From: a virus
Length of the DNA stretch: 29,119 bases
Virus record (IMG/VR): IMGVR_UViG_3300009068_000139
Coordinates: 1-29,119 of that record
Strand: one strand, 5' to 3'
Shown here one piece after another: positions 3,076-26,716 of the stretch. A model generated the notes under the pieces. That model ran no database searches and had not been told where the DNA came from. It worked only from the letters and a program-made list of their open reading frames with translations. How positions within the stretch are numbered: the first letter of the stretch is position 1; every line of letters starts with the position of its first letter. The translations under genes were made by a program, and so were the position numbers.

Positions 3076-3756
3076 TTATAGTTTTACTAATTCATTTGCT
3101 AGAGGAAATACCTCAGCAATAACCTTTGCGCATTGTCGTGCGACTTCTTGATGTTCCTTTTGTGTACCATTTGCAGATCGGAGTTCGATAAAGTGAATCC
3201 AGCTACGCAATGTACCATTCATGTATAAACGAGAAACAGTTAGTCCTTCTGGGAGTACTGCTCTTGCTTGCTCTTTTGCGATACCATTGTCTATCGCCCA
3301 AGCATACGCTTCTTCAGCTTCTCTAATCACTCGTCTTTGTCTTTCTTCCCACCATGTTGCCAATGCTAGATTTGTATTCTCAACACTATTTTGACGATTC
3401 TTCGTATCTTGAAGTCGGGCTTCTCTAAGAACGAAAGATAAGTCTTTGGTTGGATCAGCATATCGCTGGCTAAATTCTTGGAATGAAAAAGAACGATGAC
3501 GCAAGATTTGTCTTGCTATGTCACGAGTAGTTTCAATTTCTAAACAAGCACTGACCATTTCTAATGGTGACCAATGCTGATGCTTAATTAAATACTTAAT
3601 TAACTTCTCTGATGTATCTGTGTTGATTTGGTTGCTGGGATTACTAACACGAGCACAAAAGGCAACTAACTCTTGCACATCTACTAAACCTTCTTGAAAC
3701 ATTTCCTCTGAAGGTTTACTATAACTCACCATTCTAACATTCATATTTTCTTCCAT
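3076..3756 (-). CDS. thyX: Flavin-dependent thymidylate synthase ThyX
   Basis: ThyX makes dTMP from dUMP using FAD, NADPH and methylenetetrahydrofolate. The signature RHR-x2-S-x4-S-x-R-Y is complete at residues 86-99 (RHRSFSFQEFSQRY). The length, 226 residues, is usual. It overlaps the end of the primase gene by 16 bases and is followed by nrdA, forming a dTTP supply unit. ATG 3756 is used, but residues M5 or M9 could also serve as start. Its presence means that thymine, not 5-hydroxymethyluracil, is the base this phage makes at the nucleotide level in the visible region. That matters for the TET/JBP module at 18455-23106. Confidence 0.96.
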   Translation of the reverse strand: MEENMNVRMVSYSKPSEEMFQEGLVDVQELVAFCARVSNPSNQINTDTSEKLIKYLIKHQHWSPLEMVSACLEIETTRDIARQILRHRSFSFQEFSQRYADPTKDLSFVLREARLQDTKNRQNSVENTNLALATWWEERQRRVIREAEEAYAWAIDNGIAKEQARAVLPEGLTVSRLYMNGTLRSWIHFIELRSANGTQKEHQEVARQCAKVIAEVFPLANELVKL

Positions 3757-10638: not shown

Positions 10639-11085
10639 TTATTCCCCAGTAGTTTTTAGGATGGATCTTAACATCCAGCCATGTTTCTTATGTGCATCCA
10701 GTCTATCTGCCACGAAATTAGCAAAACCTTGCTCTTTTGCAGCAGTGAGTAGATCGAATAACTTATTTAGGCGAACGATGCTTTCGTTGTTCGCTGCAAG
10801 TAGATCTGCAATCATTGTCTCTGGAGTGTGTCCAACATTACCTGCATCGATAGACTTATGAACATAAATCTCGTCTAGGTTTCTGGGAGCATACTCGTTC
10901 ATTGCACGGAGTTCTTCTGCAAATGGATCGACTGCACCATATAATTCTTCATATAAATCTCCGAAGAATTCATGTAGTTGAGGGAAGTCTTTACCTTCTA
11001 CATTCCAGTGATAGGAGTGTGCTTTGAAATACATCAAAAATGTATTGCTTAGACAGACTCTTGCTTCTAGTACAGTATCATTCAT
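10639..11085 (-). CDS. Dps-like ferritin (DNA-protection during starvation family)
   Basis: This four-helix ferritin-like protein keeps the Dps inter-subunit ferroxidase residues: the histidine of HWNVEG, the histidine of FPQLHEFF, and D and E of VDPFAEEL. Dps dodecamers bind and oxidise iron with hydrogen peroxide and some bind DNA. I place the start at ATG 11085 (148 residues), directly after the upstream stop, because Dps proteins begin close to the TVLEARVCLSNTF helix. An in-frame ATG at 11136 would give 165 residues but overlap the upstream gene by 50 bases. It lies among virion proteins rather than stress genes, so it may be packaged or may protect DNA from oxidative damage during infection. 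Confidence 0.9.
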   Translation of the reverse strand: MNDTVLEARVCLSNTFLMYFKAHSYHWNVEGKDFPQLHEFFGDLYEELYGAVDPFAEELRAMNEYAPRNLDEIYVHKSIDAGNVGHTPETMIADLLAANNESIVRLNKLFDLLTAAKEQGFANFVADRLDAHKKHGWMLRSILKTTGE

Positions 11086-11086
11086 T

Positions 11087-11707
11087 TTAACAGTTCCACT
11101 TTCTAAGTGCGAGTGCCTTACGACTTGGCTCGCCATTTGGTTTCTTCATTGGACCTTCCATGCCACCCATTCGTGCACAGAAAGACTTACGACGATTTGC
11201 TGCTTTACTTCCAGCTTTTAATTTAGATGGAGAAGTAGTAACTGGTGCTTTTAAATTAGCACCTTTAGCATTGTATGCGTCACGACCCTTTTGAGTCAGA
11301 CCACCAGTCGAAGACTTGTGTCCTTTGGCATCAACTGCATACTCTAGTAATTCTAGATCGCTAAACTGTTCAAACTTTTCCCAGATGTATTCTGGATCTA
11401 AATTATGTAACATTGCCATTTCTTCGACAACGGATTCGATTAGATCAAACTGTGCTTCTAGTTCTTCATTCTGAGATGCCTTCAATGCGGCATCAGTTGG
11501 AGCACCTTTGCTTCCAGGTTTGCGCATCTTTTCGCCTGATCCAGCTTTGATTCGTTTTTGTTTAGCATGGATATTGTCCCACAATCCACGCTTACCTTCT
11601 TTAATGCATGAACCTTCAGCACATGGTGCAGTTCCAGGTTTGCGTTTGTAACCTTTCCAACAGTTACAGGTCTCAGATAAATGATCTGCAAAAGATTTAA
11701 AATACAC
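11087..11707 (-). CDS. DUF6321-like virion-cluster protein with cysteine-rich N-terminus
   Basis: The C-terminal 75 residues (SSTGGLTQKGRDAYN ... SFCARMGGMEGPM ... ALRKWNC) resemble the DUF6321 family found in large phages. Before it are a cysteine cluster (CNCWKGYKRKPGTAPC ... C), a basic stretch (WDNIHAKQKRIKAGSGEKM) and an acidic helix. I favour the GTG at 11707, which has a GGGAG ribosome-binding site eight bases upstream (11720-11716) and gives the N-terminus [M]YFKSFADHLSE. ATG 11737 adds 10 residues and has no clear binding site. The function is unknown. Its high basic content, cysteines and capsid-targeting-like start suggest an internal head protein. Confidence 0.65.
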   Translation of the reverse strand: MYFKSFADHLSETCNCWKGYKRKPGTAPCAEGSCIKEGKRGLWDNIHAKQKRIKAGSGEKMRKPGSKGAPTDAALKASQNEELEAQFDLIESVVEEMAMLHNLDPEYIWEKFEQFSDLELLEYAVDAKGHKSSTGGLTQKGRDAYNAKGANLKAPVTTSPSKLKAGSKAANRRKSFCARMGGMEGPMKKPNGEPSRKALALRKWNC

Positions 11708-17714: not shown

Positions 17715-18433
17715 CGACGAGATGCTCGTATAGTTCGCTGATATTTACGATCCCACTTAGCAATCTGCTGCATCAACTTAGGAATTGCAGCGTTATTACG
17801 ATAGTCGTAATTGAATGCTTTGAGGATGTAGTTGAGTGTTGAAGAATCTTTAGAGTATTTTGCTCTATTGATTAGTTCTTCTGTGGAGATGGTTGGTTTG
17901 TAGATTTTGAAATCAAGTAACACACAGTGGGCATATGCCTGAATTTCATCGAACTCGGAGAGATATCTTCTCTCAATGTTCTTCTTTTCATGTTTTACTT
18001 TTTTGTAAGGAACGATGTAGTTTGACCACTCGTCTCCTCTTCGATCAAATTGCATGAAGTGGATTAGCTCGTGCATTTGAGTCTGGATTATACGATACTT
18101 AAACTTGTTCCAAGTATCTTGTGTGAATGGGAATCTATCGAAAGCAGTAGTGTATATTTGGATACAGCACTGTCGTTCATCTGGTCCATATTCACCACCA
18201 ACGGCAACATAGTTGTCGTACATTTTGGCTTTGGATTTTTGTGGGAGGAACTCAACTTTAGTTCTCCACTTTTTGAAGTAATTTGAAAGACCCTTACTAT
18301 CGTTGCAATAGTTGTCTAGGTCTTGCCAGACTTTTGAAGGTATAAATTTTGCTCTGAATGGACGCTCGTGAAAGTTGAGCAGATCCATCCAATCGTAATT
18401 AGCGTTTTCTAGGAATTCAAAATTGCATGGCAT
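17705..18433 (-). CDS. Zincin-like metallopeptidase domain protein (HExxH)
   Basis: The 242-residue protein carries HELIH at residues 121-125, in a helix (TQMHELIHFMQFD), and a downstream EFDEIQAYAH helix (160-169) whose E163 could be the third zinc ligand. This HExxH plus E layout is the gluzincin pattern. There is no signal peptide, so it would act in the cytoplasm or be packaged. It follows the P-loop kinase gene after a 21-base gap and begins within a 13-base direct repeat. The C-terminus is basic (RTIRASRRPK). Targets are unknown: prohead protein processing, attack on a host protein, or a peptide step in DNA modification are all conceivable. Confidence 0.7.
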   Translation of the reverse strand: MPCNFEFLENANYDWMDLLNFHERPFRAKFIPSKVWQDLDNYCNDSKGLSNYFKKWRTKVEFLPQKSKAKMYDNYVAVGGEYGPDERQCCIQIYTTAFDRFPFTQDTWNKFKYRIIQTQMHELIHFMQFDRRGDEWSNYIVPYKKVKHEKKNIERRYLSEFDEIQAYAHCVLLDFKIYKPTISTEELINRAKYSKDSSTLNYILKAFNYDYRNNAAIPKLMQQIAKWDRKYQRTIRASRRPK

Positions 18434-18461
18434 TTTACATCCCAGAAAGGCATTTTACATC
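18429..18461. repeat. 13-bp direct repeat at the kinase/zincin gene junction
   Basis: GGCATTTTACATC occurs at 18429-18441 and again at 18449-18461 with a 20-base period. One copy covers the kinase stop codon and the other the zincin start codon. It looks like a small tandem duplication that created or moved the intergenic junction. Confidence 0.75.
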
Positions 18462-19063
18462 TTGAAATTACCTTCCAAGAATGTGAGTACCTTTCCCTGC
18501 TCCTCTAAGTTAGTGTTACTAAACTCGGTAATATAAGGCATCAGTTCAAAGTTTGATAGTAGATTACTATATTTAGTTTCTCGCCCTCTTAGGAATTGTT
18601 CAGACTGGTCGGAACCACGATCTTTGTATCGTTGTTCTAGGACTTCCTTAGTGGTCTTCAAATAGACCACCTGAAGGTCGGTGTTCGGTAGTCCCATGGC
18701 GAACTCTAAGAAAGACTGATTGAAGACTCGATCTCCCTCAAATAGAATGTTACAGTTATGAGTCTGAATCCACTTTTGTAGTTCTGGCTGGACTGCCATT
18801 GATAGGCGATCTGTTCCAGCAAATGTTTCACCCTCTTGATACTTACCAAGAATATAAAGATCCATCTCTTCATTATACATGGCAGATACTAATTTGGCTG
18901 GCTCGACCTCGATCCATTTCTTATCTTCCATAAACTTACGGAATAGAGTGGTCTTACCAGTTCCAGGTTGTCCACCAACTGCAACCAACTTGCGAGTCTT
19001 CATAGGGTTAGTCACCTTTACAATATTAATAGTGTCATCGACACCGAATCTATCATTAAACAT
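18455..19063 (-). CDS. P-loop kinase, candidate 5-hydroxymethyluracil DNA kinase
   Basis: The 202-residue protein has a clear Walker A, GGQPGTGKTT (30-39), after a beta strand (RKLVAVG), and a strand NILFEGDRVF (about 104-113) that supplies the acidic residue. QVVYLKTTKEVLEQRYKDRG (about 133-152) matches the LID/arginine region of nucleotide or polynucleotide kinases. Its size fits a small phosphotransferase. It ends the coupled TET/JBP run and overlaps the orphan gene by eight bases. Known thymine-hypermodifying phages need a P-loop kinase that phosphorylates 5-hydroxymethyluracil in DNA, and this is the only kinase in the run, so I propose that role. A nucleotide kinase is the alternative. 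An internal Met21 could also be the start. Confidence 0.7.
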   Translation of the reverse strand: MFNDRFGVDDTINIVKVTNPMKTRKLVAVGGQPGTGKTTLFRKFMEDKKWIEVEPAKLVSAMYNEEMDLYILGKYQEGETFAGTDRLSMAVQPELQKWIQTHNCNILFEGDRVFNQSFLEFAMGLPNTDLQVVYLKTTKEVLEQRYKDRGSDQSEQFLRGRETKYSNLLSNFELMPYITEFSNTNLEEQGKVLTFLEGNFKM

Positions 19064-19448
19064 TTCGTGCTTCTTTAATTAAGTTCTTCAATTCATCTTC
19101 TGTGAACACCCATACTCTTCCGAGAAAGTGATGAGTGTCACTATCTACATTATGCTTCTTAGTGAATGTAGTTTTCTTAATTATATCTCTTGCAAGATTC
19201 TTAGACAAGTTTTCTTTAATCTCGTCTGCATAGGTTGGGACAGTTTCTTTTAGTTTGGCTAACTCGAACTCAGCTACCTTATGTTCAACTGTAATTTTAT
19301 TGAACGAATGCGTATCAAGAAAGTCTTCCATGTCAAATCCACATCCACCAAATGATAGACTGCTTGAAGAAACAGCAGCATTAGTTGATATGGTAACACT
19401 ACCAGTTGTTAAACCATCAGGTATACCTGTGCCAATTATCGTACTCAT
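19056..19448 (-). CDS. Orphan small protein inside the DNA-modification run
   Basis: This 130-residue protein is not recognised. The first 35 residues are Ser/Thr/Gly-rich (MSTIIGTGIPDGLTTGS ... SFGGCGFD) and probably flexible. The rest is charged helix (residues 50-95) ending in a hydrophobic strand and helix (HHFLGRVWVFTEDELKNLI). It overlaps the transferase-like gene by ATGA and the kinase gene by eight bases, so it is translated with both. No membrane segment or metal site is apparent. It could be a small partner of the modification enzymes, or a virion protein inserted in the run. Confidence 0.6.
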   Translation of the reverse strand: MSTIIGTGIPDGLTTGSVTISTNAAVSSSSLSFGGCGFDMEDFLDTHSFNKITVEHKVAEFELAKLKETVPTYADEIKENLSKNLARDIIKKTTFTKKHNVDSDTHHFLGRVWVFTEDELKNLIKEARNV

Positions 19449-20464
19449 GTAAACATCTCCAATCCATTTAATATAGGTTCTTCATCATTAAACATCCAAT
19501 CCAGATTCTCTAGTTTACCAGAGTTAAGGAATGAACTAAATTTATCTTTATTGATACCATGTCTATGGTCTAATCTCAAGTCAATAGTTTCTTCTCTTGA
19601 TTGCCATAGAACATTCCAATCAATACCATACCAACCATCTTTCTCACACTGCTGGATTTCTTCTGCTTGACGATCCAGATAGTATCCAAGATACCTGCCA
19701 TGACTTGTTCTGAATATCTTCTTGTAAGAACACAGGCAAGTTTCCATTGTGAAGTAATCTACTTGCGATTCCAACTCTGGGAATCTTTCTTTCGTCTCAA
19801 TGAGAATGTCCCTCGCTTGTGCTTCCAGATTTGAATAATCGACTCCAGTGAGTTTTCTATCCATATCGTTATCCCTCCCAAGGGCGAGAAGTAATCCATT
19901 ACGATGAGAGCGAGAGCCATCATAATCATCAAGCATGAGGCTAGTAGGATTGATACACACACCAGCAGTATGCTTAAGATGCTGCAGATAAAACCAAGTG
20001 GAATAACGACCAAACTTATGCAGCCCAGACTTAATGCCTGTCCAGAGATTATTAAAGTTCTCTTCCTCAGTGGATCCATAAAATTCTTCCAGTCTTTCTC
20101 GTTGTGTCTTATCGCCAATAAATTGCTGATAAGAAGCAAACATCACAGGGAGATGTCCTTTGTTCCACTTTGTATCAGTCTGATATCTTAATCGTTTATA
20201 GTTGACAGTGTTCCATTGAGTCATGCGATCGACAGTTGCCAACTCAAAGTCTGGAAACTCGTTCATGAGAATCCAAGCTGTTGGAAGATAGTATGTGTTA
20301 CCATACAACCAACACAACCATAACTTCTGTTCATCGTTATGTTCGTATCGTTTGTTGAGATAGTTCGTCGCCCATACTGCTGGATCGCAATCGTCATACT
20401 TTAATGACCAAACATACCAGCGAATGAACGCTTCTCTACGATTTTGTTCTAGTCTGTAATCCAT
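19445..20464 (-). CDS. Amino acid:DNA transferase-like protein (alpha-glutamyl/putrescinyl-thymine type)
   Basis: This 339-residue helical protein resembles the phage amino acid:DNA transferases, first predicted as alpha-glutamyl/putrescinyl-thymine pyrophosphorylases. These replace the activated phosphate on 5-hydroxymethyluracil in DNA with an amino acid or amine. The recognisable core is FGRYSTWFYLQHLKHTAG (about 150-167), then LMLDDYDGSRSHRNGLLLALG (split at about 176-196), plus a tryptophan-rich N-terminal helix pair (WLCWLYGNTYYLPTAW). It begins at a TAATG junction with the GNAT gene and overlaps the next gene by ATGA. Its C-terminus NGLEMFT resembles the clamp-binding-type tails discussed in the findings. 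Assignment is by recall of the family and by context, not by a defined catalytic residue. Confidence 0.6.
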   Translation of the reverse strand: MDYRLEQNRREAFIRWYVWSLKYDDCDPAVWATNYLNKRYEHNDEQKLWLCWLYGNTYYLPTAWILMNEFPDFELATVDRMTQWNTVNYKRLRYQTDTKWNKGHLPVMFASYQQFIGDKTQRERLEEFYGSTEEENFNNLWTGIKSGLHKFGRYSTWFYLQHLKHTAGVCINPTSLMLDDYDGSRSHRNGLLLALGRDNDMDRKLTGVDYSNLEAQARDILIETKERFPELESQVDYFTMETCLCSYKKIFRTSHGRYLGYYLDRQAEEIQQCEKDGWYGIDWNVLWQSREETIDLRLDHRHGINKDKFSSFLNSGKLENLDWMFNDEEPILNGLEMFT

Positions 20465-21105
20465 TATACTAAAAATTCTTCAAGTGATGGTTGTTCCATT
20501 AGTGCTTCTCTCAACCATGCCTTACCAACTGCATCAATTGCTGTTTGCGTTTTGGCTTTCTTCTTCTCACCCCACTTATAGGATTCTAATCCTTCAGCAC
20601 GGAATTGATCTCTGGCTTTGTATGGTGGCAATGCTTGAAGTGCATTCACAATGGCAAAGTCACGATAAGCAATCTGCTCTGCTCTTGTTGGAAACAATGG
20701 TTGATCTGAACGAAGTGAACCTGTTGGATCAACTGCCCACCAAATCAAACCATTCTTGTAGTGCCATGTAACTGAAGAAGGAGTGCAAGACATCTTTAGT
20801 CTAGTCATCTTTCTTTCCTTCACTGCATAATCAATCCAAGCATCCCAGCATTTTGAAGCGTAACCATTTCCTTCTTGTCCTTCAAGTGTAACAATCTCAT
20901 ACAGATTGCTATAACCATCACGATTGAATGTGGCAAAGATTAAACAAACAACATCACCACTCACTTCAAGAGCCATTGGTGGTGCTTTGTCATAGTTATG
21001 AAATCGATACCACAATGAATGTGCAGCCGATAAGAACTTGGTGTTCTTACCAGCTGGGCTATTTTTAATTAACTCTTCAACTCTCGTTGAATTAACAAAG
21101 TTCAT
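20464..21105 (-). CDS. GNAT-fold acyltransferase
   Basis: The 213-residue protein shows GNAT features: a beta strand with LYEIVTLEGQEGNGYASKCW (split at 69-87), in which G79-x-G81-x-A83 forms the acetyl-CoA pyrophosphate loop, then the strand LKMSCTPSSVTWHYKNGL (103-120), corresponding to the usual N-x-x-A-x-x-F-Y-x-x-x-G-F region. GNAT enzymes acylate amines. In a hypermodification pathway it could acylate or remodel the amine placed on the base. It overlaps the amidotransferase gene by 14 bases and joins the transferase-like gene at a TAATG. It ends PSLEEFLV, close to the polymerase tail SLEDFFG. Substrate unknown. Confidence 0.72.
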   Translation of the reverse strand: MNFVNSTRVEELIKNSPAGKNTKFLSAAHSLWYRFHNYDKAPPMALEVSGDVVCLIFATFNRDGYSNLYEIVTLEGQEGNGYASKCWDAWIDYAVKERKMTRLKMSCTPSSVTWHYKNGLIWWAVDPTGSLRSDQPLFPTRAEQIAYRDFAIVNALQALPPYKARDQFRAEGLESYKWGEKKKAKTQTAIDAVGKAWLREALMEQPSLEEFLV

Positions 21106-21781
21106 ATTGTAAGTCTACCTCATCCTCAATAACTTCTCGTTCGATAGTCATTGCAAGTTGGTCATCAAATGTAATGTAATGGTTCATCAAAGTATTAATC
21201 GGAAATCCTGGAACAAATGCTCGTTTTGGAACATCAGCAGTAGAAGTAATTATACACCCATTTGAGATAGATGTCAAATATAATGGTCGTTTACCATTGC
21301 GATAGAATCTAATTCGTTTATCAGTATACAACTCAATTACTGCAAGACTAGAAAGTTTCCAATGTTGCAATGGCGAGTAGTGTTCCAACGATCGAAGCAA
21401 TAACTCAGTATCGTTTTTGCCTTCGCAGGTATAACCATGGAGTAATTCCCAGTCTTCATAAAGTTCTTGAGTAATAACTCCATTATGAACCACAGAAACA
21501 TTCTCATTGGCAATTGGTTGGTTGAATTCTAAGTCACTGGTACTGTAACGACAGTGACCAATTAGATAAAGACTACCATCTTCATTAACATAACTGGGAA
21601 AGTTAAATGAGAACTCATCGGCAGGGACTGGTCGCTTGTCAGTGATAATCTTTCCATGTTTAACATAGGAGATTCCAGTAGCGTGCATGCCTCGAATCTT
21701 AGACTCAAGGAACACACGATGAAGCATTAAGAAATCCTCGGCAAGAGGTTCTTTAATAATTGCGCCAATGACTGAACACAT
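21092..21781 (-). CDS. Class II (Ntn) glutamine amidotransferase domain protein
   Basis: This 229-residue stand-alone glutaminase domain starts MCSVIG, exposing Cys2 as the N-terminal nucleophile after Met removal. Other Ntn-amidotransferase landmarks are RGMHATG (30-36), GHCRYST (75-81), HNG (99-101) and GKNDTE (121-126), the same order as in GlmS and PurF. No sugar-isomerase, phosphoribosyl or synthetase domain is attached, so ammonia must pass to another protein. It is coupled to the TET/JBP gene by a 1-base overlap (TAATG) and to the GNAT gene by 14 bases, so the acceptor is probably in this run. Supplying an amino group to the modified base is the natural inference. Confidence 0.88.
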   Translation of the reverse strand: MCSVIGAIIKEPLAEDFLMLHRVFLESKIRGMHATGISYVKHGKIITDKRPVPADEFSFNFPSYVNEDGSLYLIGHCRYSTSDLEFNQPIANENVSVVHNGVITQELYEDWELLHGYTCEGKNDTELLLRSLEHYSPLQHWKLSSLAVIELYTDKRIRFYRNGKRPLYLTSISNGCIITSTADVPKRAFVPGFPINTLMNHYITFDDQLAMTIEREVIEDEVDLQYELC

Positions 21782-23106
21782 TAGAAGAATCCTTCAAGTG
21801 AGTTTGCCTTTTCTGCTTCTGGATGATACTTCATTAATATATCACGACCAAGTTTGCTTTCAAGGTATTCATACCACTCATCTGATTCCCACATTGCTGG
21901 GCTAACACCATTCCAAAGATGTCGTTGAGAACCATCTTCATACTTCTGGTCTGGATGTTCTTTGTTAAGTCTGCGTTGTTCAACAAAGTCATAACGACAA
22001 TCTTCGTATTGTTTTGAACCCAACTCAAGCATCTTCTCACGGAAGTAAACAACCAATGAGATTCGTTCTGCTTCTTCATCGAGCAATTCAATTTGAGTAT
22101 TGCCGTGCATAACCTCATGGTTATTAATCAACAACAGATCTCCAGGTCTTGGATTAACTGCAACACGATACTCTGGTGCTACCAAATAACAACCTGTATA
22201 GTTACCATTGTTTGTTAGAGTCAATAGATTGGATAGACCAGCAGTAAAGTCACCAGCATCGTAGTGACATGCAGTTCTGAAAGACTTATTAACAGTGACA
22301 GTAGTGAATGGAGTTTCAGGAACTAAGAAAGCAGGATCTAGTTTCTTTGCTGCTTCCATTTGATTGTTGTATCTCCATGGCAACAAGTCTTTGAAACCCT
22401 GCGCAAGTTGCTGTAAGAATGGATATGCCATGGCAAACTTTGCTGGCTCACGAGCAGTATAAGATGTTGCACGACCATAAGGAATGCGAGGATAACGATC
22501 GAACCAACCAGCAATACCAGACATGACACCATTGGCATAGGTAGTTGCACAGACATATGATTTCTCAATTCGTCTCGCTTCGATAACCATATCAGATGCA
22601 TCTAATTTACGAACTTTCTCAACCCACTCATTGAAAACAAATCCATCTTTCTTAACTGCTTGGATACCCCAAACATTATTTCGTGTGGATGGTTTGTCAG
22701 TCTTACCTTCGTGTTTGGCTTTAATGGCTTCGATTGGATCTCCATCCAAAGATGCTTTTGGGTTTAAGAAGTAGTCAATGATTTCTGATTCATATTCAGT
22801 TACCCATTCACGATTACCCAACTTCTCTGCTCTTGGACCTGCAGCCATACCTCTGTTCTGAGTTTCAGTTGCAGCTTCACGCAAACCAATGTATGCTTGG
22901 TCTTGTTGTTCTTTGCTGAAGTAGTTCTTACGAAACTTCAGAACAATTCTTTCTTCAGAGTATGTTAGTTCTGGATGTCCAGGAATTTCTGGCATATATA
23001 CATCGCAGTCCTCTTCAATCAGGAAATCATAATGTGACTCATCAGGGAACTGTCCCAACATATGAGTCATATCAAGTTTCTCTTTTGCTACAATTACCTT
23101 TACCAT
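21781..23106 (-). CDS. TET/JBP-family 2-oxoglutarate/Fe(II) DNA-base dioxygenase
   Basis: The C-terminal half has the TET/JBP signature: VTVNKSFRTACHYDAGDF (270-287) with iron ligands H281 and D283, PRPGDLLLINN (319-329), the distal H334 (VMHGN) and R348 (ERISLVVYFRE) for 2-oxoglutarate. TET enzymes hydroxylate the methyl of 5-methylcytosine and JBP enzymes that of thymine, in DNA. The N-terminal 250 residues are a separate region including two RNNVWG and GRATSYTAREPAKF segments. A strong ribosome-binding site (AGGAGAA) precedes ATG 23106, which opens the coupled modification run. The tail NSLEGFF resembles the polymerase tail. ThyX in the same genome and no visible cytosine methyltransferase favour thymine as substrate. 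Confidence 0.87.
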   Translation of the reverse strand: MVKVIVAKEKLDMTHMLGQFPDESHYDFLIEEDCDVYMPEIPGHPELTYSEERIVLKFRKNYFSKEQQDQAYIGLREAATETQNRGMAAGPRAEKLGNREWVTEYESEIIDYFLNPKASLDGDPIEAIKAKHEGKTDKPSTRNNVWGIQAVKKDGFVFNEWVEKVRKLDASDMVIEARRIEKSYVCATTYANGVMSGIAGWFDRYPRIPYGRATSYTAREPAKFAMAYPFLQQLAQGFKDLLPWRYNNQMEAAKKLDPAFLVPETPFTTVTVNKSFRTACHYDAGDFTAGLSNLLTLTNNGNYTGCYLVAPEYRVAVNPRPGDLLLINNHEVMHGNTQIELLDEEAERISLVVYFREKMLELGSKQYEDCRYDFVEQRRLNKEHPDQKYEDGSQRHLWNGVSPAMWESDEWYEYLESKLGRDILMKYHPEAEKANSLEGFF

Positions 23107-26164: not shown

Positions 26165-26716
26165 CTATGGATTGTTCTTGGAATGTGGAACATCAAACAC
26201 AAATGTAATGCGAACTACATCACCAACATTCTTGGTTCCATGTGACAGTTTATTGTTAAACCAAAACAGATCTCCTGCATCGATCTTTACAGATTCTCCA
26301 CCAACAGTGTAAACATATGAACCTTGTATTGCAAGATGGTATCGATCTCTTGTTTGATAATAACTACCAATATCAATATGCTGTCCAACTTCTCCACCAA
26401 TCGGTAGTGAAAGAAATCCACATCTATCAAATTTCTTAAAGTTGCGTTTTAAGAATCCTACAATCTCTGTGTGTCTGCTATACGCTGGTGTTTCTACGGA
26501 TAATTCACTATCACCCACATATTGATTTAGGTCTTTTACCGCACCGATTTTTAATTGAAGGACACCTGCTTGTACTGCAGGGAATCCATACTCATTGACT
26601 AAATCGTGCACACCTTCAATTTGTTTCTGAGCACCCCAGTCCTCTGGGTATTGATGCAGCTGTTTCAGTATCTTAGAAACATTAATACCTTTTTTTATAA
26701 CTCTAATGTTAGCCAA
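26165..26716 (-). CDS. Aspartyl/asparaginyl beta-hydroxylase-like 2-oxoglutarate oxygenase
   Basis: The 183-residue protein shows the double-stranded beta-helix residues of this family: H113-x-D115 (GEVGQHIDIG), AGDLFWFNNKLSHGTKN with distal H159, and R169 (VVRITFVFDV) for 2-oxoglutarate. Bacterial and animal relatives hydroxylate Asp or Asn side chains; some phage relatives have unknown substrates. It overlaps the polymerase stop by eight bases and precedes the thioredoxin-uvsX promoter. Its length matches a bare catalytic domain. It could modify a phage or host protein, or take part in a DNA-modification pathway with the TET/JBP protein; the sequence does not decide. Confidence 0.85.
   Translation of the reverse strand: MANIRVIKKGINVSKILKQLHQYPEDWGAQKQIEGVHDLVNEYGFPAVQAGVLQLKIGAVKDLNQYVGDSELSVETPAYSRHTEIVGFLKRNFKKFDRCGFLSLPIGGEVGQHIDIGSYYQTRDRYHLAIQGSYVYTVGGESVKIDAGDLFWFNNKLSHGTKNVGDVVRITFVFDVPHSKNNP

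Follow-up and report, generated by a model that had tools for sequence, protein, structure and literature searches.

A predicted post-replicative thymine hypermodification operon with a conserved glutaminase in a T4-like phage

Analysis of the window, a 29,119-base IMG/VR virus fragment (IMGVR_UViG_3300009068_000139) with T4-like gene content, pointed to a six-gene operon predicted to carry out post-replicative hypermodification of thymine. In the proposed pathway, the phage thymidylate synthase ThyX would allow DNA to be made with ordinary thymine (step 1), and a TET/JBP-type dioxygenase (TET) would hydroxylate the thymine 5-methyl group in DNA to 5-hydroxymethyluracil (5hmU; step 2), the counterpart in the polymer of the thymidylate-synthase-like hydroxymethylase acting on the nucleotide pool in M6/ViI-type phages. 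A P-loop kinase would then phosphorylate the hydroxymethyl group (step 3) and an amino acid:DNA transferase (AADT) would displace the phosphate with a nitrogen nucleophile (step 4). Steps 1-4, predicted from enzyme families, operon conservation, and the alternative enzymes missing from relatives, are considered probable, with steps 2-4 modeled on characterized relatives. In M6, ViI, and phiW-14, 5-hydroxymethyldeoxyuridine (5hmdU) in DNA is phosphorylated by a 5hmdU DNA kinase and an amine is subsequently transferred (PMC6449724). Two further steps are less certain and are suggested by the pattern of gene content: ammonia from a glutaminase would enter step 4 directly to give 5-aminomethyluracil or, alternatively, would amidate the carboxylate of an AADT-linked amino acid (step 5), and a GNAT enzyme would cap the amine with an acyl group, a COOH-NH2 amidoligase occupying that slot in sister phages (step 6). 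The modification would likely protect the DNA from host nucleases. The genes concerned, with lengths in amino acids (aa), are as follows.

21781..23106, minus strand: TET/JBP-type 2-oxoglutarate (2OG)-Fe(II) dioxygenase, 441 aa (Pfam Tet_JBP; conserved HxD..H..R)
21092..21781, minus strand: stand-alone class II glutamine amidotransferase (GAT, an Ntn glutaminase), 229 aa (GATase_6; conserved residues)
20464..21105, minus strand: GNAT-fold acyltransferase, 213 aa (weak Pfam match; predicted fold)
19445..20464, minus strand: AADT of the AADT / aGPT-Pplase2 family, 339 aa (PF18724)
19056..19448, minus strand: orphan ORF130, 130 aa (alignment of homologues)
18455..19063, minus strand: P-loop kinase, 202 aa (PF18751, phrog_800, Walker A)
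3076..3756, minus strand: ThyX thymidylate synthase (TIGR02170, 6.6e-47)

All six operon genes named in a preliminary description of this DNA were recovered at these positions in the open reading frame (ORF) list of the window, and each of the tight junctions it reported was seen in the window sequence. These comprised a TAATG between TET and GAT that share base 21781, a 14-base overlap of GAT and GNAT (21092-21105), a second TAATG between GNAT and AADT at 20464, an ATGA between AADT and ORF130 (19445-19448), and an 8-base overlap of ORF130 and the kinase (19056-19063). The TET start is preceded by AGGAGA, which resembles a ribosome-binding site, and the gp41-like helicase ORF lies 9 bases away from TET.

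The three enzymes of steps 2-4 were assigned from family profiles and conserved residues, and the family calls of the preliminary description held for them as for the glutaminase and GNAT. TET matched Pfam Tet_JBP (PF12851) at 3e-27, its 95.3 bits exceeding the curated cut-off of 34.9 and placing its catalytic domain in the family. The metal triad and 2-oxoglutarate arginine (H281xD283, H334, and R348) were each conserved in at least 97% of 90 homologues, and the HxD..H..R residues aligned with those of other phage TETs. TET is therefore proposed to be a hydroxylase acting on thymine in DNA, a substrate favored by its gene context. The 339-residue protein matched PF18724 (ADDT) at 3.4e-20 with 73.2 bits against a curated cut-off of 26.2 and aligned with homologues from Caulobacter phage Cr30, Gordonia phage Wooper, and phage Montesquieu. 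M6 gp51 fell in the same Pfam family (1.4e-46), such that the profile comparison with the AADT family was positive, and the protein is proposed to displace phosphate by a nitrogen nucleophile. No AADT relative was found in the bacterial genomes scanned, and the AADT alignment gave nothing useful against PDB profiles. The 202-residue protein matched Ploopntkinase3 (PF18751, 8.6e-9), a model that also matched the kinases of Wooper and Mycobacterium phage VioletZ, carried a Walker A motif (GQPGTGKTT) conserved among homologues, and was 37% identical to a Cr30 protein; against PDB profiles its alignment returned P-loop similarity only. It further matched phrog_800 (1.7e-15), as did M6 gp54 (2e-39) along with the Wooper and Melnitz kinases. 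M6 gp54 is itself a 5-hmdU DNA kinase by Pfam (PF18748, HMUDK_HMUD1; 7.7e-18), and through PF18751 and the shared phrog_800 the comparison of the window kinase with 5hmU kinases was also positive.

The glutaminase is a single-domain protein matching GATase_6 (1.6e-11) in which the N-terminal nucleophile C2 and residues R78, N100, G101, and D124 were conserved among 89 homologues, placing it in class II and making it the proposed ammonia source. By sequence, the GNAT gave a weak Pfam match (0.006) and its alignment nothing useful against PDB profiles. An AlphaFold2 model built from an alignment of 15 relatives (pLDDT 63.9, pTM 0.67; core residues ~40-160 at block-mean pLDDT 59-88) had as its best PDB matches exclusively GNAT enzymes (Foldseek 1.9e-5; VIA Z 11.7, root-mean-square deviation 2.5-2.6 Å, 128-131 aligned). 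The GNAT fold of the 213-aa protein is thus supported by the model, and the enzyme is proposed to acylate a side-chain amine. The orphan combines a variable, Ser/Thr-rich N-terminus with a conserved C-terminal region of ~80 residues in an alignment of 25 homologues, and had no significant match in Pfam, PHROGs, or the PDB.

TET matched 332 stretches in IMG/VR and AADT matched 191. After these had been merged into loci, the analysis covered 111 window-type contigs (1.10 Mb). The gene order was kept in over 100 contigs of IMG/VR. The glutaminase lay between TET and AADT in all 72 loci having both, the kinase followed AADT in all 47 loci with over 2.5 kb of sequence downstream of it (the orphan being absent from four of these loci), and the gp41-like helicase preceded all 65 TET genes with upstream sequence. 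From these three invariant associations, the arrangement is not attributable to chance. The six genes are real and under purifying selection, with median dN/dS of 0.08-0.20 (0.16 for the orphan) compared to 0.08 for UvsX and gp41. The slot between the glutaminase and AADT contained the window-type GNAT in 62 loci and an amidoligase (a glutamine synthetase (GS)-fold COOH-NH2 ligase) in 10, never both, and the amidoligase loci additionally held either a different GNAT (five loci) or a low-molecular-weight phosphatase-like protein (five loci).

Several relatives contained further genes within the operon. An additional ORF of 225-242 aa was inserted between GNAT and AADT in 15 of the 62 GNAT loci (e.g., L066:12631-13305). 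It had no family match and its alignment gave nothing useful against PDB profiles; a nuclease identity suggested by eye from a D-rich motif was abandoned, as the AlphaFold model had a pLDDT of 46.6 and no usable structural match. A different ORF of 192 aa was present in this slot in L136 (2843-3421), and an extra 2OG-Fe(II) oxygenase of ~200 aa was found between TET and the glutaminase in seven loci (L131, matching PF13759, and L080, L015, L085, L010, L068, and L053). In L083 (6777-8201), the orphan and kinase genes were separated by one for a radical SAM protein, a class of enzyme with known tailoring roles in M6-type pathways.

Steps 5 and 6 are read most simply from an invariant glutaminase followed by an enzyme that alternates between an acyl-CoA type and a carboxylate-amine ligase: the glutaminase and AADT would together put nitrogen on the base, and the switchable enzyme would acylate it. 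In its explicit form, the glutaminase would be a second nitrogen source feeding AADT to yield 5-aminomethyluracil, whose amine would be a common handle acylated via acyl-CoA (GNAT) or by ATP-dependent ligation (amidoligase), producing exchangeable amide-linked groups; this form is put forward tentatively and with considerable doubt. A possible variant, differing in steps 4-6 and following the order suggested in the preliminary description, would have AADT link a whole amino acid, the glutaminase amidate its carboxylate, and GNAT acylate a second amine. The AADT pathways of the M6/ViI/phiW-14 type reportedly start from amino acids, as is said to have been described by Lee et al. in 2018 and 2022, and the amidoligase of the sister clade could perform the amidation. 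However, no homologue of this amidoligase was found in two relatives of 162-164 kb (G001 and G002), yet the glutaminase is invariant, which would leave the ammonia it releases with no known activated carboxylate to react with.

It is unlikely, if conceivable, that TET, the kinase, and AADT modify thymine while the glutaminase, with the GNAT or amidoligase, belongs to a distinct peptide or cell-envelope module inside the operon. Class II glutaminases do occur with GS-fold COOH-NH2 ligases, sometimes along with ATP-grasp and GGCT proteins, in LUZ24-like phages such as tf, in Vibrio phage 1.262.O, and in Sinorhizobium phage phiM6, where neither AADT nor TET is annotated close by, and both Cr30 and VioletZ carry the TET-AADT-kinase trio with no detectable relative of the window glutaminase. 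Against such a module, the single-domain 229-aa glutaminase was found between TET and AADT in every locus with both genes, its reading frame overlaps those of its neighbors in the window, and the mutually exclusive GNAT and amidoligase always sit between the glutaminase and AADT.

Thymine is the best supported of the candidate substrates, as no C5-cytosine methyltransferase was found, AADT phages divide between TET and thymidylate-synthase-type enzymes, and ThyX is present. The preliminary description had regarded a 5-methylcytosine (5mC) methyltransferase elsewhere in the genome, with TET active only on 5mC, as contradicting its proposal. A hidden Markov model (HMM) for C5 methyltransferases, built from Melnitz-type Methylophilales phages, had no match in the 111 window-type contigs compared to 67 of 72 Melnitz-type loci, and PF00145 was absent from five relatives (G001-G005), Cr30, Stenotrophomonas phage DLP6, C48C1, and Synechococcus phage S-CBWM1, the relatives searched including three of 162-165 kb. 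In AADT phages, which are not independent samples, a thymidylate-synthase-family enzyme occurred without TET in M6, Montesquieu, Ag3, and Cygsa01, and TET occurred without such an enzyme (no PF00303 match) in G001-G005, VioletZ, and Wooper. The TET matches of Wooper and VioletZ were below the Pfam cut-off, and an HMM from the relatives of the window found that of VioletZ (9e-9). Cr30 was the only AADT phage examined to encode both, with a very strong match for a thymidylate-synthase-family gene that may be an ordinary ThyA. TET thus stands in the place of a nucleotide hydroxymethylase as the candidate source of 5hmU, the same substitution being seen in the actinophages. ThyX was identified in all six relatives searched, and in the window it is an ordinary thymidylate synthase by the curated model TIGR02170; it would supply ordinary deoxythymidine monophosphate (dTMP), and therefore thymine rather than 5hmU should enter the DNA.

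The 5mC route, in which TET would act on cytosines methylated by a host enzyme and 5-hydroxymethylcytosine would then be elaborated by the kinase and transferase, was demoted to a minor and improbable rival by the missing methyltransferase. It draws on the marine Melnitz-type phages that pair a C5 methyltransferase with TET and have a homologous kinase downstream, and the HxD motif of TET does not tell the two substrates apart; choosing a substrate from the active site was uninformative, as the D+3 residue is Asp in both the window group and the 5mC-linked group. On the other side, the Melnitz-type group has no detectable AADT, AADT in the other phages examined accompanies either a thymidylate-synthase-type enzyme or TET minus a methyltransferase, and host 5mC would be sparse. 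A nucleotide-level route, with ThyX or another enzyme making 5hmdUMP and TET having a different role, appeals to the presence of ThyX and is very improbable given the assignment of this enzyme to ordinary thymidylate synthases and the replacement, rather than accompaniment, of the thymidylate-synthase-type enzyme by TET in AADT phages with the exception of Cr30.

Several observations weigh against the thymine pathway as proposed. The D+3 residue after HxD is Asp in the window group and the 5mC-methyltransferase-linked group compared to Asn in the actinophages. As the window covers 29 kb of the phage genome, its own gene absences are taken from relatives. PF18748 had no match in six relatives or Cr30, nor was it among the families listed for the window kinase, and the link between this kinase and M6 gp54 consists of phrog_800 and a weak local HMM match. 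The kinase is hence proposed as a 5-hydroxymethyluracil-DNA kinase in the sense of working like one, within the wider phrog_800 rather than as a member of PF18748. Finally, the glutaminase-amidoligase sets of LUZ24-like and other phages and the glutaminase-free trios of Cr30 and VioletZ raise the possibility that step 5 acts on something other than DNA.

The idea of TET/JBP-initiated base hypermodification reportedly originated with Iyer et al. in 2013. They are also named as its origin in a later article (PMC6449724). Phage ThyX supplying dTMP, TET hydroxylating thymine in DNA, and elaboration by the kinase and AADT formed the core of the preliminary description, and this core is well supported computationally, by enzyme families and gene-content complementarity; the TET-AADT-kinase set is not new, being already known in actinophages. 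As far as the literature goes, in the part of it covered here, what is new to this class is its occurrence in a T4-like lineage, the presence of the glutaminase, and the mutually exclusive filling of one slot by GNAT or amidoligase, and the glutaminase together with acyl-capping enzymes plausibly points to a base not yet described. The operon would make the long-standing prediction of TET/JBP as the start of complex base modification directly testable, as AADT phages split into a thymidylate-synthase type and a TET type and cultured phages exist for the latter, with Cr30 and VioletZ as culturable proxies for the operon core. If this is correct, bacterial viruses lacking any methyltransferase would have thymine as a TET substrate, and DNA hypermodification would gain amide chemistry from the glutaminase and its swappable acyl-transfer/ligase slot. 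Some public labels are also affected: phrog_800 is named "terminase small subunit" in PHROGs, a likely misannotation of a hydroxymethylpyrimidine-DNA kinase family, and phage TETs (DLP6, Cr30, Nigel) are recorded as "SNF2 DNA repair protein" or "queuine tRNA-ribosyltransferase," also likely misannotations that the operon reading would help to relabel.

Outside the operon, the T4-like genes of the window, in part read from translations, encode NrdB, NrdA, ThyX, a primase-like ORF, the gp41-like helicase, a UvsX-like ORF, a thioredoxin-like ORF, and a DNA polymerase. A second 2OG oxygenase-like protein (Asp_Arg_Hydrox/cupin; 26165-26716) adjoins the DNA polymerase gene and is kept in many relatives, a ferritin/Dps-like protein (PF00210, 2.2e-20; 10639-11136) is encoded within the phage genome, and a short direct repeat, GATGTAAAATGCC, at ~18429-18462 lies where the kinase gene ends and the next ORF begins. 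A PADLOC scan gave no relevant match.

Among known systems, the LUZ24-like, tf, and phiM6 sets share a glutaminase and ligase with the window lineage and differ by a larger glutaminase gene and by the lack of an annotated AADT, TET, or kinase in the stretches examined. In S-CBWM1 (L005:3729-6061), the gene immediately after TET encodes a TET-associated glycosyltransferase (TAGT, 3.5e-10) and the genome lacks a C5 methyltransferase, an arrangement that may represent a base-J-like system. The Melnitz-type phages (loci L210 and L222-L292) share TET and, in many loci, the downstream kinase family and differ in that the C5 methyltransferase adjoins TET and AADT is missing; they probably represent a parallel cytosine route. 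Melnitz itself encodes a 427-aa protein without family match between TET and the kinase, and Melnitz gp7 as a hidden AADT had no HMM support.

Cr30 and DLP6 have full-length orthologues of the window TET (46-48%), and in Cr30 AADT (28%), the kinase (37%), and TET fall within 9 kb. In contrast to the window, their genes are not contiguous, no relative of the window glutaminase was found, DLP6 is without AADT, and Cr30 has a weak TAGT-like gene besides its thymidylate-synthase-family gene. Closer in arrangement are the actinophages Wooper, VioletZ, and Rhodococcus phage Tonitrus, in which a TET-like enzyme, a PF18724 transferase, and a P-loop kinase are consecutive; the set is annotated in Wooper and recognizable in VioletZ, and both resemble the window clade in lacking PF00303 and PF00145. 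In Tonitrus, a five-gene set including ParB-like, TET-like, aGPT-Pplase2, and 5-hmU kinase genes constitutes a predicted thymidine hypermodification system (PMC11955845). The actinophages differ from the window by a ParB-like gene before TET, another gene after the kinase in Wooper, and a very divergent TET with the catalytic domain alone in common, and no relatives of the window glutaminase or GNAT were detectable in phage records of actinophage hosts. The M6, ViI, and phiW-14 systems share the families of the window AADT and kinase, represented by M6 gp51 and gp54, but use a thymidylate-synthase-family enzyme and no TET, and beside AADT, where the window has the glutaminase and GNAT, M6 carries genes for a pyridoxal phosphate (PLP) enzyme and a radical SAM protein.

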